Assembly (NCBI GenBank): GCA_937136395.1 | Contig: CAKZOI010000006.1 | Coordinates: forward strand, 1-58,115 | Reading direction: 5' to 3' | Length of the DNA stretch: 58,115 bases | Source of the DNA: an uncultured Opitutia bacterium | GTDB taxonomy: Bacteria; Verrucomicrobiota; Verrucomicrobiia; Opitutales; Coraliomargaritaceae | Shown here: piece by piece, positions 15,127 through 50,781 of the stretch | How positions within the stretch are numbered: position 1 is the stretch's first letter | Layout: the number at the start of each line of letters is the position of its first letter | Notes under the pieces: generated by a model | Databases searched by the model: none | What the model was told of the DNA's origin: nothing | The model's input: only the letters and a program-made list of their open reading frames with translations | Made by a program: the position numbers and the translations under genes

Positions 15127-15133
15127 GAGAACT

Positions 15134-15167
15134 TTGAACATCGAACGTCCAACACTGAACGTCGAAT
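15134..15167. repeat. dispersed repeat of GAACGT/ACGTTC words upstream of trpE
   Basis: A run built from TTGAACATCGAACGTCC and ACTGAACGTCGAAT, ending 8 bp before the trpE start. Related runs occur at 32632-32676 and 51851-51870. The words GAACGT and CGAAC recur in both orientations, so the array is partly self-complementary. Origin and function unknown. Confidence 0.7.
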
Positions 15168-15182
15168 AAAAATTTAAAATAT

Positions 15183-16360: not shown

Positions 16361-16863
16361 TAGGCTTCAGGAAGTTCGGTGCCGAGCACGGTGTTGGTTT
16401 GGTTCTCACGAAACGCCTTTAGGCGATCGCGCACGCCATCATTATTGAGCGAAAGGATTGACGCTGCAGAGAGCGCCGCGTTTTTCGCGCCGGCAACACC
16501 GATTGCCAGTGTCATGACTGGAATGCCTGCGGGCATTTGCACGATGGAAAGCAGCGAGTCTTGTCCGCTGAGTGCTTTGGATTGCACGGGCACGCCGAGA
16601 ACTGGAAGATGTGTCATGGCAGCGGTCATGCCCGGGAGGTGGGCCGCGCCACCCGCACCGGCAATGATGACTTGGATGCCGCGTGCTTCAGCTTCTTCAG
16701 CATAGATGTAGAGGAGCTTCGGTGTGCGGTGTGCACTCACGATTTTTGTCTCGAAAGGGATTTCGAGCTGCTTGAGTAAGGCAGCGGCTTCACCCATGGT
16801 GCTCCAGTCTGATTGACTGCCCATGATGATTCCGACGACGGCGTTGTTTGCATTGGCTTCCAT
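16360..16863 (-). CDS. purE: N5-carboxyaminoimidazole ribonucleotide mutase
   Basis: Converts N5-CAIR to CAIR, the step after PurK; 167 aa. Class I PurE motifs are present: [13 protein letters not shown] at the N-terminus, [16 protein letters not shown], and [28 protein letters not shown]. The start at 16863 ([11 protein letters not shown]) is preferred over one 5 codons upstream. It is translationally coupled to purK by a one-base overlap and lies just downstream of glpD on the same strand. Confidence 0.97.
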
Positions 16864-16901
16864 ATTGCAGCTAAGCAAACGGATTTCATTGGGGAATTCA
16901 A

Positions 16902-18506
16902 CTACGTAAGCAGATAGCCTTGGGCTAATTTTCGGAATGCTTCAGCTTCGTTGGTGGCCCACTCGGGTGAGTGGCCGAGTTCATCCGCTAGCATTTGTGC
17001 GATGAGCGCGGCGCTGTCGTGTGCGGCTTGGGCATTGAGAAAGAGCATGCGCGTGCGGCGCGCGAGGATGTCTTCGACGCGTCGTGGCATTTCGTGGCGT
17101 ATCGACCAGAGGGCTTCGGCATGTGTGTAGGGGAGCGAGGGGTGGATGCGCTCCGCGAGGGACGAGTCTGCATGGATGATGTCTTGAATGCGTGTCGAGT
17201 CGGAACCGTATAGTGAAAAGTGGGTAGGGATGGTTGCCTCTAGCCGTCCGTTCATTTCAGCTGCGAACGCCTGAGGGAGGGCGTCCCTACCTGCGCCGTG
17301 GACTTTTAGTTCGACCGTCAGGCACGGTTTTGAATCTAAGCCGCCGAGGGTTTCGGCTTGGTTGATGACGTCTTCGGCCATTTGGCGGTAGGTGGTCCAC
17401 TTGCCGCCGGCGATCGTTAGTAGACCGCTGTCGGAGATGACGATGGTGTGATCACGCGAAATTTCGGAAGTATCATCGCCGCCGTTGGATTGCACGAGGG
17501 GGCGTAGCCCGGCAAAGACGGACTGCACATCGCTGCGCGAGAGGTCTTTGGCTAAGTATTGGGCGGCGTTCTTCAGGATGAATTCAATTTCCTCTTCGAG
17601 GGCAACAGGTTCGAGGTCGATGCTTTCGACTGGGGTGTCGGTGGTGCCGACTATGACGTGGTCGTGCCAAGGCACGGCAAAAAGGACGCGTCCATCAGTT
17701 GTTTGGGGGACCATCATGGCGGCTTCCTTTGGCACAAATTCCTTAGGCAGGACTAGGTGCACGCCTTGACTCGCGGCGATCATCTTATGTGTATCCGGAT
17801 TGTCCATACGGCGCACGGAGTCAGTGAAGACGCCCGTGGCGTTGATAATGGTTTTGGCTCGGATGGAGAATGTGTGTCCGCTTTCGATGTCCTCGCAGTT
17901 GACTGCTTGGATGAGGCCGTTTCCCTTTACGAAGCCAGTCGCCTGGACGTAGTTAACCGCAATGCCGTCATGATCGAACACGGTCTGGGCTAAGTTGATG
18001 GCAAGGCGAGAGTCATCGAACTGTCCATCGTAATAGATGACGCCGCCCTGTAGGCCATCTGTTTCGAGGGTAGGGATGTGCTCGAGTGTTTCTTCTTTGC
18101 TGAGTTGCTTGGAGGGTTTCAGTCCGAGTTTGCCCGCGAGCATATCGTAGACTTTGAGTCCAATCCCGTAAAACGGGCCATCCCACCATTTATAGATGGG
18201 GACGATAAAGGATTGGTGGGTAACGAGGTGTGGAGCGTTCAGGCAGAGTCGTCCGCGCTCTTTGAGTGCTTTGAGCACGAGTGCGATGTTGCCCTGTTTG
18301 AGGTAGCGCACGCCGCCATGGACGAGTTTGGTGCTGCGACTTGAGGTGCCTTTGGCGAAGTCCGCTTGCTCGATGAGTGCGACGGTATGCCCACGACTTG
18401 CCGCGTCGACCGCGCAACCTAAACCTGTCGCACCGCCACCTATAATTAGGATGTCAAATGGGTCTTGTTTTGAGCGAAGCTTAGTTAGTGCAACTTCTCG
18501 ATTCAT
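16902..18506 (-). CDS. glpD: aerobic glycerol-3-phosphate dehydrogenase with an in-frame repeat insertion
   Basis: Oxidises glycerol-3-phosphate to dihydroxyacetone phosphate and feeds electrons to quinone at the inner membrane. The FAD-binding loop is [21 protein letters not shown], followed by [15 protein letters not shown] and the substrate/FAD core through [12 protein letters not shown]. About 534 aa from the ATG at 18506; a GTG two codons upstream is possible. Residues about 406-428 (starting GRDALPQAF, ending EATIPT) are exactly the translation of a 69-bp palindromic repeat at 17223-17291, placed between KVHGA and HFSLYGSD. The rest of the C-terminal domain reads through normally, so the enzyme is probably intact. 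It is flanked by mqo, another quinone-linked FAD enzyme. Confidence 0.94.
17223..17291. repeat. 69-bp REP pair inserted in frame inside glpD
   Basis: Terminal inverted repeats GGTAGGGA at 17223-17230 and TCCCTACC at 17284-17291 bound exactly 69 bp, which is 23 codons. On the glpD strand it begins GGTAGGGACGCCCTCC, giving a GTAG head followed by an imperfect GGACGCC/GGCGTTC stem, as in the intergenic repeats of this window. Its limits coincide with codon boundaries of glpD. Confidence 0.75.
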
Positions 18507-18567
18507 ACTCACGAGTATGTCAACTATCTGCTTCGTTTACCAGAGTAAATGGCAAACGTGGAATAGC

Positions 18568-22494: not shown

Positions 22495-22522
22495 AATTAT
22501 GCTGAGATGTGACTGAATGCTC

Positions 22523-22595
22523 GTAGGGGCTTCACTTGTGAAGCCCGCAGTGCTCTAGGCCTATGCTCGGCGGTCTTCACAAGTGAAGCCTCTAC
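22523..22595. repeat. 73-bp paired REP (BIME-like), GGGCTTCA class
   Basis: Two GTAG-headed palindromes in inverted orientation: GTAGGGGCTTCACTTGTGAA from 22523, and its near mirror ending TTCACAAGTGAAGCCTCTAC at 22595. The spacer is about 25 bp. The copy at 49974-50046 has the same length; its inner stem pair is T-A where this copy has C-G, a compensatory change that supports a selected hairpin. Confidence 0.85.
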
Positions 22596-32631: not shown

Positions 32632-32676
32632 GACGTTGAACATCGAACATCGAACGTTCAACGTCCAATGTTGAAT
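32632..32676. repeat. dispersed repeat of GAACGT/ACGTTC words upstream of the methyltransferase
   Basis: Runs from GACGTTGAACATCGAACA to GTCCAATGTTGAAT and includes the self-complementary core CGAACGTTCAACG. It lies 11 bp before the start of the minus-strand methyltransferase. Related runs occur at 15134-15167 and 51851-51870. Confidence 0.7.
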
Positions 32677-32749
32677 GGAAACAAATGTAAGGGTGCGCAT
32701 TGTGGCTTGTTTGCACGCTTGGGGGCAGTGTGCGTGTTCGATGTTCGCC

Positions 32750-47362: not shown

Positions 47363-47457
47363 CAGCGCAAAGCGCCGTAGTGAGTCGTTTGGTGTAGCCG
47401 AAATCGGGAGATTTTGGACCGATCCGTATAGTGAGTGGCAATCACGAGCCATAAAAG

Positions 47458-47635
47458 GTAGCGGCGCGCGTCCCTGCGCGCCATCTGCGCCAGAGCCTAC
47501 CAATTTACTAAGGCAGACAATTATCTTCTGGAGGGACGCGCTCCGTCGCGTCCGCCGTATCTGTGCCAGAGCCTACGAATTTACTAAGGCAGACAATCAT
47601 TTCCTGGAGGGACGCGCTCCGTCACGTCCGCCGTA
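47458..47635. repeat. repeat cluster: one REP plus a 76-bp unit in tandem
   Basis: A GTAG-headed palindrome (GTAGCGGCGCGCGTCCCTGC) at 47458 is followed by two tandem 76-bp units, 47484-47559 and 47560-47635, that differ at only a few positions. Each unit runs from TCTGYGCCAGAGCCTAC to CGTCCGCCGTA. Each contains a GGAG-headed hairpin, GGACGCG-ctccgt-CGCGTCC. The gene-free stretch 47363-47690 holds only this cluster and flanks without visible genes. Confidence 0.85.
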
Positions 47636-47690
47636 TCGAGGAAGTGCTTGCTACGCCATCCCCGTAAGCGCTCCGATGGTTACATTGATA

Positions 47691-48137
47691 TCATTCCTCG
47701 CCGAGACCTTCGAGGTCTGCCAAGTCGCGTAAACGGCCACTCGCACGTTTGTTTTTGACTAGATCCGCATAGCCAATGAATGGGATCTCAATGCCGTCGG
47801 CATCGATGGTTACTTTGTTTGGATAGCTGGCGTCAAAGTCGATCCCGCTGGCTTCCGTAATAATTTCGATTCGAAGCGGAGGCGTTCCCATTCGAAATGC
47901 ATTGCCGTTTTCTTTGAAAAACTCTCGATCAATGCCACCAGGCACTCCAAACGCTTTGAGGGCAGCAAGGAGGGCATTAATATTGGTATCTGATTGCCCG
48001 ATCCAAATATCCATGTCTCCGGTTGCACGAACGTATCCATGGACTCCGAGCGCCCAGCCGCCGACGATCAAGTATTCAACTTTGTGCTCGTTTAAGAGAC
48101 ACAACAGATCTTTGAAGTCTTCCGGTAGCTGCTGCAT
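47691..48137 (-). CDS. small nucleotidyltransferase-like protein, second gene of a possible toxin-antitoxin-like pair
   Basis: 148 aa with a minimal nucleotidyltransferase fold: EYLIVGGWALGVHGYVRATGDMDIWI holds the GG-(x)-W-A and D-M-D metal motif. A later LRIEIITEASGIDF has Glu where the third acidic residue (usually RIDIL) is expected. The family includes DUF6036/MNT-type partners of small proteins. The upstream small ORF overlaps it by 62 bp. The substrate (NTP transfer to protein or tRNA) is unknown and no activity is inferred beyond the fold. Confidence 0.75.
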   Translation of the reverse strand: MQQLPEDFKDLLCLLNEHKVEYLIVGGWALGVHGYVRATGDMDIWIGQSDTNINALLAALKAFGVPGGIDREFFKENGNAFRMGTPPLRIEIITEASGIDFDASYPNKVTIDADGIEIPFIGYADLVKNKRASGRLRDLADLEGLGEE

Positions 48138-48270
48138 CGCCCCAAAATGCGATGCGTAGTTTCTGAATGCAAGCCAGCCTTTCTGCAGGGCTCAGTTTTA
48201 AGCAATCCTCGCGGTAGTCCTTAGTGGATTCGGACTGTTTGCCATAGCTGAATTCGATAGGAGGCTTCAT
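48076..48270 (-). CDS. small protein paired with the nucleotidyltransferase
   Basis: 64 aa from the ATG at 48270. It carries LSPAERLACIQKLR and FWGDAAATGRLQRSV, a pattern (WGxxAxTGRLQR) I recognise from small proteins coded directly before minimal nucleotidyltransferases. The stop lies 62 bp inside the partner gene, so the two are read from overlapping frames. The order small protein, then nucleotidyltransferase, is the usual two-gene arrangement of toxin-antitoxin-like modules. A longer frame starts at 48324. Confidence 0.6.
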   Translation of the reverse strand: MKPPIEFSYGKQSESTKDYREDCLKLSPAERLACIQKLRIAFWGDAAATGRLQRSVVSLKRAQS

Positions 48271-48383
48271 TGACTCGAATGATTCACGAATATGCAGAAA
48301 AGTCGATACTAGGTATGGCCACAAAACGTATTATTTTAAAACGCTTATTGACGTATACCATCACGGATCGACTCAGAGGTAAG

Positions 48384-48604
48384 AGGTCTAAATGCTCATA
48401 AAGGTAGCGGCACGCGTCCCTGCGCGCCATCTGTGTCAGAGCCTACGAATTAGTTGAGGCAAAATCATTGTAGGCAAAATCATACGACTCTGACGCATTG
48501 TTTGAACCGCCGCTTCGCACTCCGCGTAGAAGCGACACTCCTGTCGCTTTCCTTTTTACTGAGGCAAACAAATATCTTCTGGAGGGACGCGCTCCGTCGC
48601 GTCC
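48384..48604. repeat. composite repeat cluster upstream of the glycosyltransferase
   Basis: Positions 48384-48475 match, inverted, the copy at 50689-50781; both contain AGGTCTAAATGCTCATAA followed by the GTAGCGGC hairpin and the CAGAGCCTAC box. A different GTAG palindrome (GTAGAAGCGACACTCC) follows at 48526-48549, and a GGAG-headed GGACGCG hairpin at 48581-48604. The 405-bp gene-free stretch 48325-48729 consists mostly of this composite; the last 110 bp before 48730 should carry the glycosyltransferase promoter. Confidence 0.85.
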
Positions 48605-48729
48605 GCCGTATCTGTAGAATTAATTTAAACGGTGAATAAAAACGTTCACGTTACGTTTGCGTCACACCTCACTCTGGCGTTGATTCTTGGTCATATTCAG
48701 CCACAGGCTATCCCGTATCCTGAATACCT

Positions 48730-49977
48730 ATGCGCGTCCTGCTCACATCACACGGTTCCACCGGCGACATCTACCCAGTGATTCGCCTCGGCCGCGCGCT
48801 AGTTGAAGCGGGCCACCAGGTCCGCTTCGCCACAGTCTCGCTCTTTCGTGAGGAAATTGAGTCGGCTGGTATCGACTTCGTTTATTTACCACCGGATTGG
48901 GATCAAAGCGGCTTCGCCGAAGCCATGCGCGATTTGACACATGCCAAAAACCCGCTCGATCTCATGCGGATCATCTACTCCGAGTCGCTACCATACCTCG
49001 ACGAGATTCTGGACACCCTCGACCGTGAATTGCAGCAGGCCGATGTCTTTGTCAGTAGCTATCTTTTTGCCAATCTCTGTGCCTTAGCGCGTAAGCATGG
49101 CGTGCCCTCCGCGGTGACGACCTTTGCGCACAATGTCGTGCCTTCACCGAGTTATCCACCCGACGAGTTGCCACGACTCTTACCCGCACCTCCACGACTT
49201 CGTCGTCTGTGGAACCGTATGCTGTGGAAGTTGACCGACCGAGTGCTCTGCTGGAATATCAACCGTGTTGTGGGCGAGATCATGCTCAAGCATGGCATGG
49301 ATCGGGCGGCAAGCTTTGCCATCGAGCCAGCCGATAAGGTGCTCGTCACCGTGTCGCCCGGTCTCTTCCAGCCGCAGCGCCTCTGGAGTGATCGTTTTAA
49401 CTTCACTGGCTACTTGCGCTGGCAGTCACCCGAAGACCCCACGCTCGATGCCGCAGTTCGCGCGTTCTGTGGCGACGAGAAGGTGCCCATCCTTACCTTT
49501 GGCAGTGTCACCTTCGATGAAGCTCGCAAGATCATGACGCGCTTCATGCGCGCTTGGCCGGAAGGAAAGAAAATCATTATCCAGTCCGGCTGGGCAGGAC
49601 TTACCATTGAACGCCCTCACTCTGGTATGTTACGCGTGGATCGCGTCTCGCACGACCAACTGTTTCGCTACGCCTCGATGGTCATACATCACGGCGGTGC
49701 TGGCACCACCGCCAGCGTCCTACACGCGGGTGTGCCCAATATCATTATCCCACATATCGGAGATCAATGGTTCTTTGCAAGTGAAATGAGGCGTATCGGC
49801 TGCGGGCTCGAAGTCAAACGCAAGAGCTGGCCCGAAGATCTACCCAAAGCGGTTTTAAAGGTCGAAAAGAACCAAAAGATGCAGGCGCGTGCCAAAGAAA
49901 TCGCCCAATTGCTAGCCCAGGAAGATGGCCCCGGCAAGGCCGTCAAAACGCTCGAAGCGCTCGCCGTATGTTCGTAG
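48730..49977 (+). CDS. GT1-family glycosyltransferase
   Basis: 415 aa. The GT-B fold starts with ILLTSHGSTGDIYPVIRLGRAL-like MRVLLTSHGSTGDIYP and ends with the nucleotide-sugar signature SHDQLFRYASMVIHHGGAGTT, then GVPNIIIPHIGDQWFFA, as in UDP-glucosyltransferases of the sterol/macrolide/rhamnosyl type. Acceptor and donor cannot be read. It stands alone in a repeat-rich patch. The stop codon TAG at 49975-49977 lies inside the GTAG head of a REP pair. Confidence 0.85.
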   Translation: MRVLLTSHGSTGDIYPVIRLGRALVEAGHQVRFATVSLFREEIESAGIDFVYLPPDWDQSGFAEAMRDLTHAKNPLDLMRIIYSESLPYLDEILDTLDRELQQADVFVSSYLFANLCALARKHGVPSAVTTFAHNVVPSPSYPPDELPRLLPAPPRLRRLWNRMLWKLTDRVLCWNINRVVGEIMLKHGMDRAASFAIEPADKVLVTVSPGLFQPQRLWSDRFNFTGYLRWQSPEDPTLDAAVRAFCGDEKVPILTFGSVTFDEARKIMTRFMRAWPEGKKIIIQSGWAGLTIERPHSGMLRVDRVSHDQLFRYASMVIHHGGAGTTASVLHAGVPNIIIPHIGDQWFFASEMRRIGCGLEVKRKSWPEDLPKAVLKVEKNQKMQARAKEIAQLLAQEDGPGKAVKTLEALAVCS

Positions 49978-50046
49978 GGGCTTCATTTATGAAGACCGCT
50001 GAGCCAAAGCCTGAACCGCCGCGGTCTTCATAAATGAAGCCCCTAC
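49974..50046. repeat. 73-bp paired REP (BIME-like) with perfect 26-bp inverted arms
   Basis: Left arm 49974-49999 starts GTAGGGGCTTCATTTATGAA; the right arm 50021-50046 is its exact reverse complement. The spacer is 21 bp. Each arm is itself a hairpin (CTTCA-tt-ta-TGAAG). It overlaps the glycosyltransferase stop codon and lies 30 bp from the end of the convergent MEKHLA gene. Confidence 0.9.
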
Positions 50047-50076
50047 GACTGATCAGTCATTAGCCATTAAAAATTT

Positions 50077-50499
50077 TCAAAGCATATACCACTGCGAGAA
50101 CGTAGCGGCTTGCCCGACGATCTCGCCCTCGGCATCGAGTAGCATCCAGATCTTTGCCGAATCGATATAGAAGCGCTTGCCCGAAGCGCTCACGCGGATA
50201 CCGTGATACTTCTCTGAGAAACCATGCCGACGCACATCCTCCAGCAGAGCGGCCCGTTCATTACGATGCAGCGGCTCCGCCGAGTATCGGGAGGGTAACT
50301 TGGTCAGAGTCGCCCAATCCATCTCGAACAAATCCTGCGCACAGCAATTTCCGTAGCTAAAAATAGGATCCTCTTGAACCCCATGCGAAAGCACCACAAA
50401 CGGTGCCACCATCAAACGTTCCGCTTCATCCGCACCACGCACAATCAAATCCTCACCAAAACAGCGGTGATAATTATCAAGGAGCAGCGTAGTGTGCAT
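50077..50499 (-). CDS. stand-alone MEKHLA-domain protein
   Basis: 140 aa from the ATG at 50499. Almost the whole protein is a MEKHLA domain: LLLDNYHRCFGEDLI, APFVVLSHGVQEDPIFSYGN, LFEMDWATLTKLPSRYSAEP, GIRVSASGKRFYIDSAKIWML and GQAATFSQW. The domain is related to PAS domains and occurs in plant HD-ZIP III proteins and as short bacterial proteins, where the ligand is not established. A frame from 50619 would add 40 unlike residues. Convergent with the glycosyltransferase. Confidence 0.85.
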   Translation of the reverse strand: MHTTLLLDNYHRCFGEDLIVRGADEAERLMVAPFVVLSHGVQEDPIFSYGNCCAQDLFEMDWATLTKLPSRYSAEPLHRNERAALLEDVRRHGFSEKYHGIRVSASGKRFYIDSAKIWMLLDAEGEIVGQAATFSQWYML

Positions 50500-50640
50500 G
50501 GTAAGTGGGCTTAGTCGCAGGTGGAAAGCGATACAATCCAATACGGATTTCAAAGTATCGCCAACCACAAACACGCACACAAGCCCCGCAGAGCTATTGT
50601 TGGGCCCACGAATCGACACGAGGAAGATGGCGTAGCAATG

Positions 50641-50781
50641 ATCTCCTGAAGGGACGCGCTCTGTCGCGTCCGCCGCATCTGTGCCAGAGCCTACAATGAT
50701 TTTGCCTCAGTAAATTCGTAGGCTCTGGCACAGATGGCGCGCAGGGACGCGCGCCGCTACCTCTTATGAGCATTTAGACCT
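50641..50781. repeat. repeat cluster with an 18-bp perfect inverted repeat
   Basis: The arms ATCTGTGCCAGAGCCTAC (50677-50694) and GTAGGCTCTGGCACAGAT (50718-50735) are perfect complements around a 23-bp loop. Flanking them are a degenerate GGGACGCG hairpin on the left and a GGCGCGC hairpin on the right, ending at CTAC 50760. Positions 50689-50781 are an inverted copy of 48384-48475. The gene-free stretch 50500-50911 is otherwise without visible genes. Confidence 0.85.

Follow-up and report, generated by a model that had tools for sequence, protein, structure and literature searches.

What is a palindrome of a class usually called extragenic doing in frame inside the gene of a central enzyme, and how did it come to lie there? 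The window (the whole stretch of DNA analysed here, 58,115 nt from an uncultured Opitutia bacterium of the family Coraliomargaritaceae) raises this question at glpD, which encodes an aerobic glycerol-3-phosphate dehydrogenase. For the glpD product, Pfam DAO and DAO_C both score higher than their cut-offs; the NCBIfam GlpD equivalog models match with an E value of 9e-92, yet below cut-off. A first-pass annotation placed a 69-bp palindromic element at 17223–17291 in the glpD frame, and its ends (GGTAGGGA and TCCCTACC), its length and its boundaries, both of which fall on glpD codon boundaries, are as described there. We find it to consist of two GTAG-tagged REP units in inverted orientation, an arrangement like that of a REPIN. 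The reading that we favour, at a probability of roughly 0.85, is that this small non-autonomous pair sits in frame in a naturally length-variable loop of GlpD and is tolerated there, with recent insertion in each lineage that carries it as the likelier history. The features of the locus are as follows.

16902–18512, minus strand: glpD, aerobic glycerol-3-phosphate dehydrogenase, 536 aa, frame open through the element
17223–17291, no strand assigned: inverted REP pair (REPIN-like GTAG-type dimer), 69 bp, 23 codons, GlpD residues 408–430
17264–17291, minus strand: REP unit A, the more 5′ of the two along glpD, GGTAGGGACGCCCTCCCTCAGGCGTTCG, scoring 39.1 bits and showing some decay
17251–17263, no strand assigned: 13-nt spacer between units A and B, 11/13 identical in the glpD copy of a congener (G002)
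17223–17250, plus strand: REP unit B, in the opposite orientation, GGTAGGGATGGTTGCCTCTAGCCGTCCG, scoring 37.0 bits

In the 3.18-Mb draft genome from which the window comes (G000), the pattern GTAGGGA-N38..68-TCCCTAC occurs at two places, the glpD element and C21:174105–174171, and a reversed-pattern control occurs at none; the element is therefore beyond chance. The RNA fold of its coding strand is better than 199 of 200 shuffles (z = −3.0), and the plus strand taken as single-stranded DNA is less striking (z = −1.85, with 9 of 200 shuffles equally good). A further match to the octamer GGTAGGGA in glpD, at 18069, stands isolated with no element around it and was rejected as a second element.

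Each 28-nt unit (consensus GGTAGGGACGNCTGCCCTCAGNCGTCCG) forms a small hairpin with a 9-bp stem and a 4-nt loop, and the two units are inverted in the element with their GGTAG ends pointing outward. In a gapless alignment of 22 units, for which we specified the structure and which leaves out three units because of indels or wrong ends, standard pairs fill 95.5% of the pair cells, and the stem pair 11–22 shows clear covariation (CG 8, GC 8, UA 3, UG 2). The tag occupies unit positions 2–5, unpaired, with the stem beginning at position 6, and reads GTAG in 20 of the 22 units and GTCG in two. GTAG REPs as defined in PMC3733652 have stems of 5–13 bp and loops of 2–20 nt, carry their tag unpaired at one end beside the stem, and are dispersed and mostly intergenic, all of which holds for the family described here. 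The resemblance is one of described features and extends to GTAG abutting a 9-bp stem, a short loop, inverted dimers and heterodimers. Two inverted REPs around a spacer, the arrangement of a REPIN, recur in 12 full copies, and occupancy by the pair differs between the three species of the genus (G000 and its congeners G001 and G002). The spacer of the glpD copies differs from that of most other pair copies. All 12 full pairs (L023–L036) are heterodimers whose units have unlike bases at stem position 11, which keeps every one of them from being a perfect long palindrome; heterodimers are reported to be preferred in most GTAG and CGTC families (PMC3733652). The REPINs described for Pseudomonas fluorescens similarly comprise two REPs inverted around a spacer that can form one hairpin, and are nearly all extragenic (PMC3116915). 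In contrast to these, the pairs here have far fewer copies and spacers that vary by copy, and we found no linked RAYT.

The family is unevenly represented across the genus. At E ≤ 1, the unit model has 17 matches in G000, 2 in G001 and 61 in G002; at E ≤ 0.001, the counts are 10 (the glpD element's own two included), 2 and 54. Under stricter filters, any unit-model match is found in 10 of 43 family genomes; the 11 matches in another family member (G026), each 27 nt long, may belong to another family. The presence of other G000 copies disposes of the case in which the element would be unique in its genome, and agrees with the earlier description of a mobile-type palindrome in glpD: it is a REP pair with copies elsewhere and, we infer, a history of movement. 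The G002 matches fall in 35 places, or 31 after four weak ones (E > 0.1) are dropped. Four of these 31 lie in conserved genes (glpD, a gene for a carotenoid-desaturase-like FAD oxidoreductase, uvrA and purL), and at the other 27 no conserved gene was seen across the element; six frames of at least 100 aa that span an element, at five G002 loci, have no Pfam match. A G000 copy at C22:37909, considered as intragenic because a 228-aa frame that matches ArsC contains it, lies upstream of the ArsC region (residues 112–220) and is read as extragenic. In this Opitutales genus, the element's REP family is mostly outside recognised genes.

GlpD was found in 12 of the 43 family genomes, and the insert is present in two of these, G000 and G002. 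The proteins of G001 and nine other family members are without it, the absence that the first-pass annotation had proposed to look for in close relatives, and the G002 insert, at the same place in glpD, forms an even better palindrome than that of G000, the reverse of a relative that keeps the segment without palindromic DNA. The 23 residues do lie between KVHGA and HFSLYGSD; a simple addition of 23 residues does not hold. From CxT to Y, the segment measures 39 residues in G000, 38 in G002, 22 in G001 and 24 in the nine other family members, a comparison that excludes 30 of 80 related loci, which gave no frame under the motif filter. The net gain in G000 relative to relatives is about 15–17 residues, less than 23 because native loop residues are missing (6–8 in G000 and 7–9 in G002). 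Under another search pattern, 83 of 89 loci of relatives, with some genomes listed twice, gave an ordinary loop of 5–16 residues at this site, the remaining six, the G002 record L052 among them, falling outside the pattern. Long segments occur at the site in 3da1 (B. halodurans) and 2rgh (Streptococcus) by sequence alignment, and the GlpD of Pontibacter ramchanderi (L114) has 40 residues there. On these alignments, the insertion site is length-variable in general. In an AlphaFold model of the glpD product (mean pLDDT 88.1), which matches GlpD/GlpO structures at Z scores of 36.5–41.7, the only run of at least three residues with pLDDT below 50 is 412–428, within the insert at 408–430. The insert probably makes a floppy surface loop, in keeping with the surface position first proposed.

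Comparison of the two glpD copies bears on age and constraint. Outside the insert, the G000 and G002 proteins are 78% identical, and identity at the fourfold sites of glpD is 38% (79/210), near saturation; the codons that flank the insert diverge at once. Within it, 60 of 69 nt are identical (unit A 23/28, spacer 11/13, unit B 26/28), as are 22 of 23 third codon positions, against a maximum of 18 in 488 equal windows of 23 codons along glpD. Of the nine nucleotide differences, eight affect the first or second position of a codon; 16 of the 23 residues are identical and seven are changed; the 174 windows with at most 16 identical residues have at most 52 identical nt, compared with 60 in the insert. 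The DNA of the insert is more alike than its surroundings and the protein is not, which is the opposite of coding constraint. We see no sign, in these sequences, of protein-level constraint on the insert, and it looks younger than the split between the G000 and G002 species. This codon-position test is one way to tell REP inserts from evolved protein sequence. The notion that the 23 residues are a functional GlpD segment under selection draws on a frame that is open in two species and on the long segments at the site in homologues of other phyla, but with seven of 23 residues changed, differences concentrated at first and second positions, and 10 of 12 family GlpDs managing without the insert, we regard it as very unlikely.

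The sequence evidence favours separate recent events in the G000 and G002 lineages, each an insertion or replacement at this one spot, over a single old inherited insertion. In the latter account, one insertion in the genus ancestor would have passed down to G000 and G002, with G001 losing it, and gene conversion between REP copies or hairpin constraint would have kept the DNA similar. We consider this doubtful, although it is still alive because the spacer is common to both copies and native residues are missing in both. Had the insertion been clean, the native loop would still be there, and the lack of loop residues in both copies counts against the explanation that we prefer; together with the common site and the 11/13 identity of the spacers, it fits an ancestral insertion at least as well. 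The ancestral account also needs one loss under the species order (G000,G001),G002, given by a syntenic block in which 12 of 15 ORFs (one of the 15 nearly tied and one an antisense frame) place G000 nearer G001 than G002, and gene conversion would hold the arms near consensus. Set against it are the 22 of 23 identical third positions beside near-saturated fourfold sites, and the units themselves, near consensus in G002 (48.6 and 44.4 bits) and less so in G000 (39.1 and 37.0 bits). The spacer, which lies outside any conversion of the arms, is conserved like the arms (49/56), and the G001 loop is no convincing remnant. Two related ideas were not supported. In the first, the REPs bracket the original loop and the spacer is native: 12 of 18 nt agree between the G001 loop and the G000 insert, a level of at least 12 being reached by 3 of 82 other loops and equalled by 1.8% of shuffles, and the desaturase-like copy retains native residues outside its element. 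In the second, the element was lost from G001 and left a remnant, which rests on the same weak 12/18 similarity.

The strong RNA fold and the conserved third positions would also suit a hairpin retained for a role in glpD mRNA or DNA (attenuation, RNA processing or a gyrase site). We judge such a role improbable, given that the hairpin is absent from G001 and nine other family GlpDs, that an Rfam search of 16800–17800 returned no match at E ≤ 1, and that the G000 copy shows partial decay. Each of the three genus genomes is a draft of 70–110 contigs and two are MAG records, which could invite an explanation by assembly or binning artefact; the two genomes carry differing versions of the insert between flanks that are divergent but syntenic, and make this scarcely credible.

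The element would have entered glpD in single-stranded form, copied by a REP-associated (Y1/HUH) transposase; RAYT (Y1/HUH) transposases are believed to mobilise REP pairs as single strands (PMC3116915, PMC8266576). The insertion may have survived through the open frame and the tolerant loop, and the element would be translated as a floppy loop of a working GlpD enzyme. GTAG REPs frequently occur close to the gene for their cognate tyrosine (Y1) transposase (PMC3733652). Matches to Y1_Tnp number 6 in G000 and 13 in G001; G002 has the most REP copies of the three genus genomes, yet no match at E ≤ 0.001. The glpD-element family is absent, by three tag patterns, from the 1.5 kb on each side of 12 Y1_Tnp loci (11 genes; all six G000 rows and 6 of the 13 G001 rows), a result that, with the lack of a G002 match, weighs against the reading that we favour. 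At one G000 locus (L048, contig C70), two inverted REP pairs of another GTAG family, GTAGGGGCTTCAYTTRTGAAG, at 1360–1436 and 1995–2071, flank a Y1_Tnp match, the upstream pair lying within an open stop-to-stop frame; from this arrangement, the locus is likely a REPtron of the same genome. The GTAGGGGCTTCAYTTRTGAAG family is also present in the window, as pairs at 22517–22595 and 49968–50046, the latter overlapping the 3′ end of an ORF.

Elements of the glpD family lie in frame in other G002 genes as well: a 66-nt copy in the carotenoid-desaturase-like gene, whose product gives matches to family models below cut-offs; a 49-nt pair with a truncated first unit in uvrA; and a single unit beside a second palindrome in purL. 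All four G002 in-frame sites share the phase GGT AGG GAC, although the common phase is weak evidence of anything because two phases are open. A genome of another genus (G012, 81% complete) has a single unit in its desaturase-like gene, where the flanks indicate the same codon position as in G002; the unit is identical to a consensus unit at 26 of 28 positions and is the only unit-model match there at E ≤ 0.001. The desaturase-like gene occurs in 38 genomes, of which 12 were aligned or read (L132, outside the motif filter, was read separately), and ten other aligned relatives carry it without a REP.

The PurL and UvrA loops vary widely in length across the family and, by eye, hold other repeat-like DNA in many genomes. 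GGAGGGC-type pairs occur in the uvrA loops of G000, G011 and G016, GAACATCGAAC repeats in the purL loops of G025 and G033, a GTAGGGGCGCGAC unit in the purL loop of G026 and a 59-nt palindrome in that of G032; the minimal PurL loop, of nine residues, is found in G021, G034 and G036. Among the matches listed, six of nine loop inserts picked by eye as repetitive-looking have further copies in their own genome, and the one control piece matches only itself. The pieces from purL of G000 and from uvrA of G025 and G026 have no own-genome copies among the matches listed, the G026 uvrA piece having one match in G025. The longest exact inverted repeat failed as a general proof that the loops are palindromic: measured in 18 loci for each gene (43 genomes having some match), 6 of 31 loops of at least 18 residues stand out, 4 of 14 in purL and 2 of 17 in uvrA, at a level reached by at most 2% of control windows. 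Repeat copies are better evidence than inverted-repeat length for these inserts. Some repeat-rich loops are very long with their frames intact, at 58 residues in G026 purL (L238) and 47 in G017 uvrA (L255).

A few variable loops of housekeeping enzymes in this family could be recurrent landing pads, where unrelated REP families insert and displace each other at matching codon positions across genera, so that essential proteins are steadily supplied with new loop sequence. We hold this at about even odds because the repeat copies in six of nine inserts stand against the six of 31 loops and against PMC3733652, where different REPs lie at about the same recB site in two Xanthomonas and inserts in other genes lie at different sites. 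If landing pads are real, the rates at which REPs insert and are swapped could be obtained by comparing close strains, as could the way in which mobile DNA contributes to protein loop evolution. A literature search covering few subscription papers returned no report of the same loop being re-used across a family.

The first-pass annotation held that REPs inside ORFs are rarely noticed, and this did not stand. Intragenic GTAG and CGTC REPs are reported in several species, the GTAG ones most in Opitutus terrae of the Verrucomicrobia, both of whose uvrA genes have REP inserts (PMC3733652). An in-frame GTAG REP is thus a known kind in the same phylum, mostly intergenic there as here, with some copies in genes including uvrA. 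The same study suggested that inserts are tolerated in flexible linkers or loops, and speculated that inserts in repair genes alter their activity. New here are glpD, the codon-position evidence and the candidate recurrent loops; for glpD and purL, the novelty is relative to the main text of PMC3733652, which does not mention glpD, glycerol, phytoene or purL. Rickettsia RPE-1, RPE-4 and RPE-6 are likewise palindromes in protein genes (cited in PMC3733652); that source classes RPE-4 and RPE-6 with the CGTC repeats and gives RPE-1 as longer, in contrast to the GTAG tag of the glpD element. The enterobacterial RU-1/2/3 repeats are also small mobile repeats within genes, but are MITE-like and 103–168 bp long (PMC2759123).

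The window holds further repeats. Repeats of the GGAGGGACGCGCTCCGTCGCGTCCGCC type, belonging to families D1, D3 and D4, are clustered at 47454–50694, outside the larger ORFs except at 47454–47652, where they overlap a 163-aa ORF; a relative of these repeats is in frame in G002 purL. Repeats of the GAACATCGAACGTCCAAC type lie at 15129–15172 and 32638–32681, and their relatives are in frame in purL of G025 and G033.
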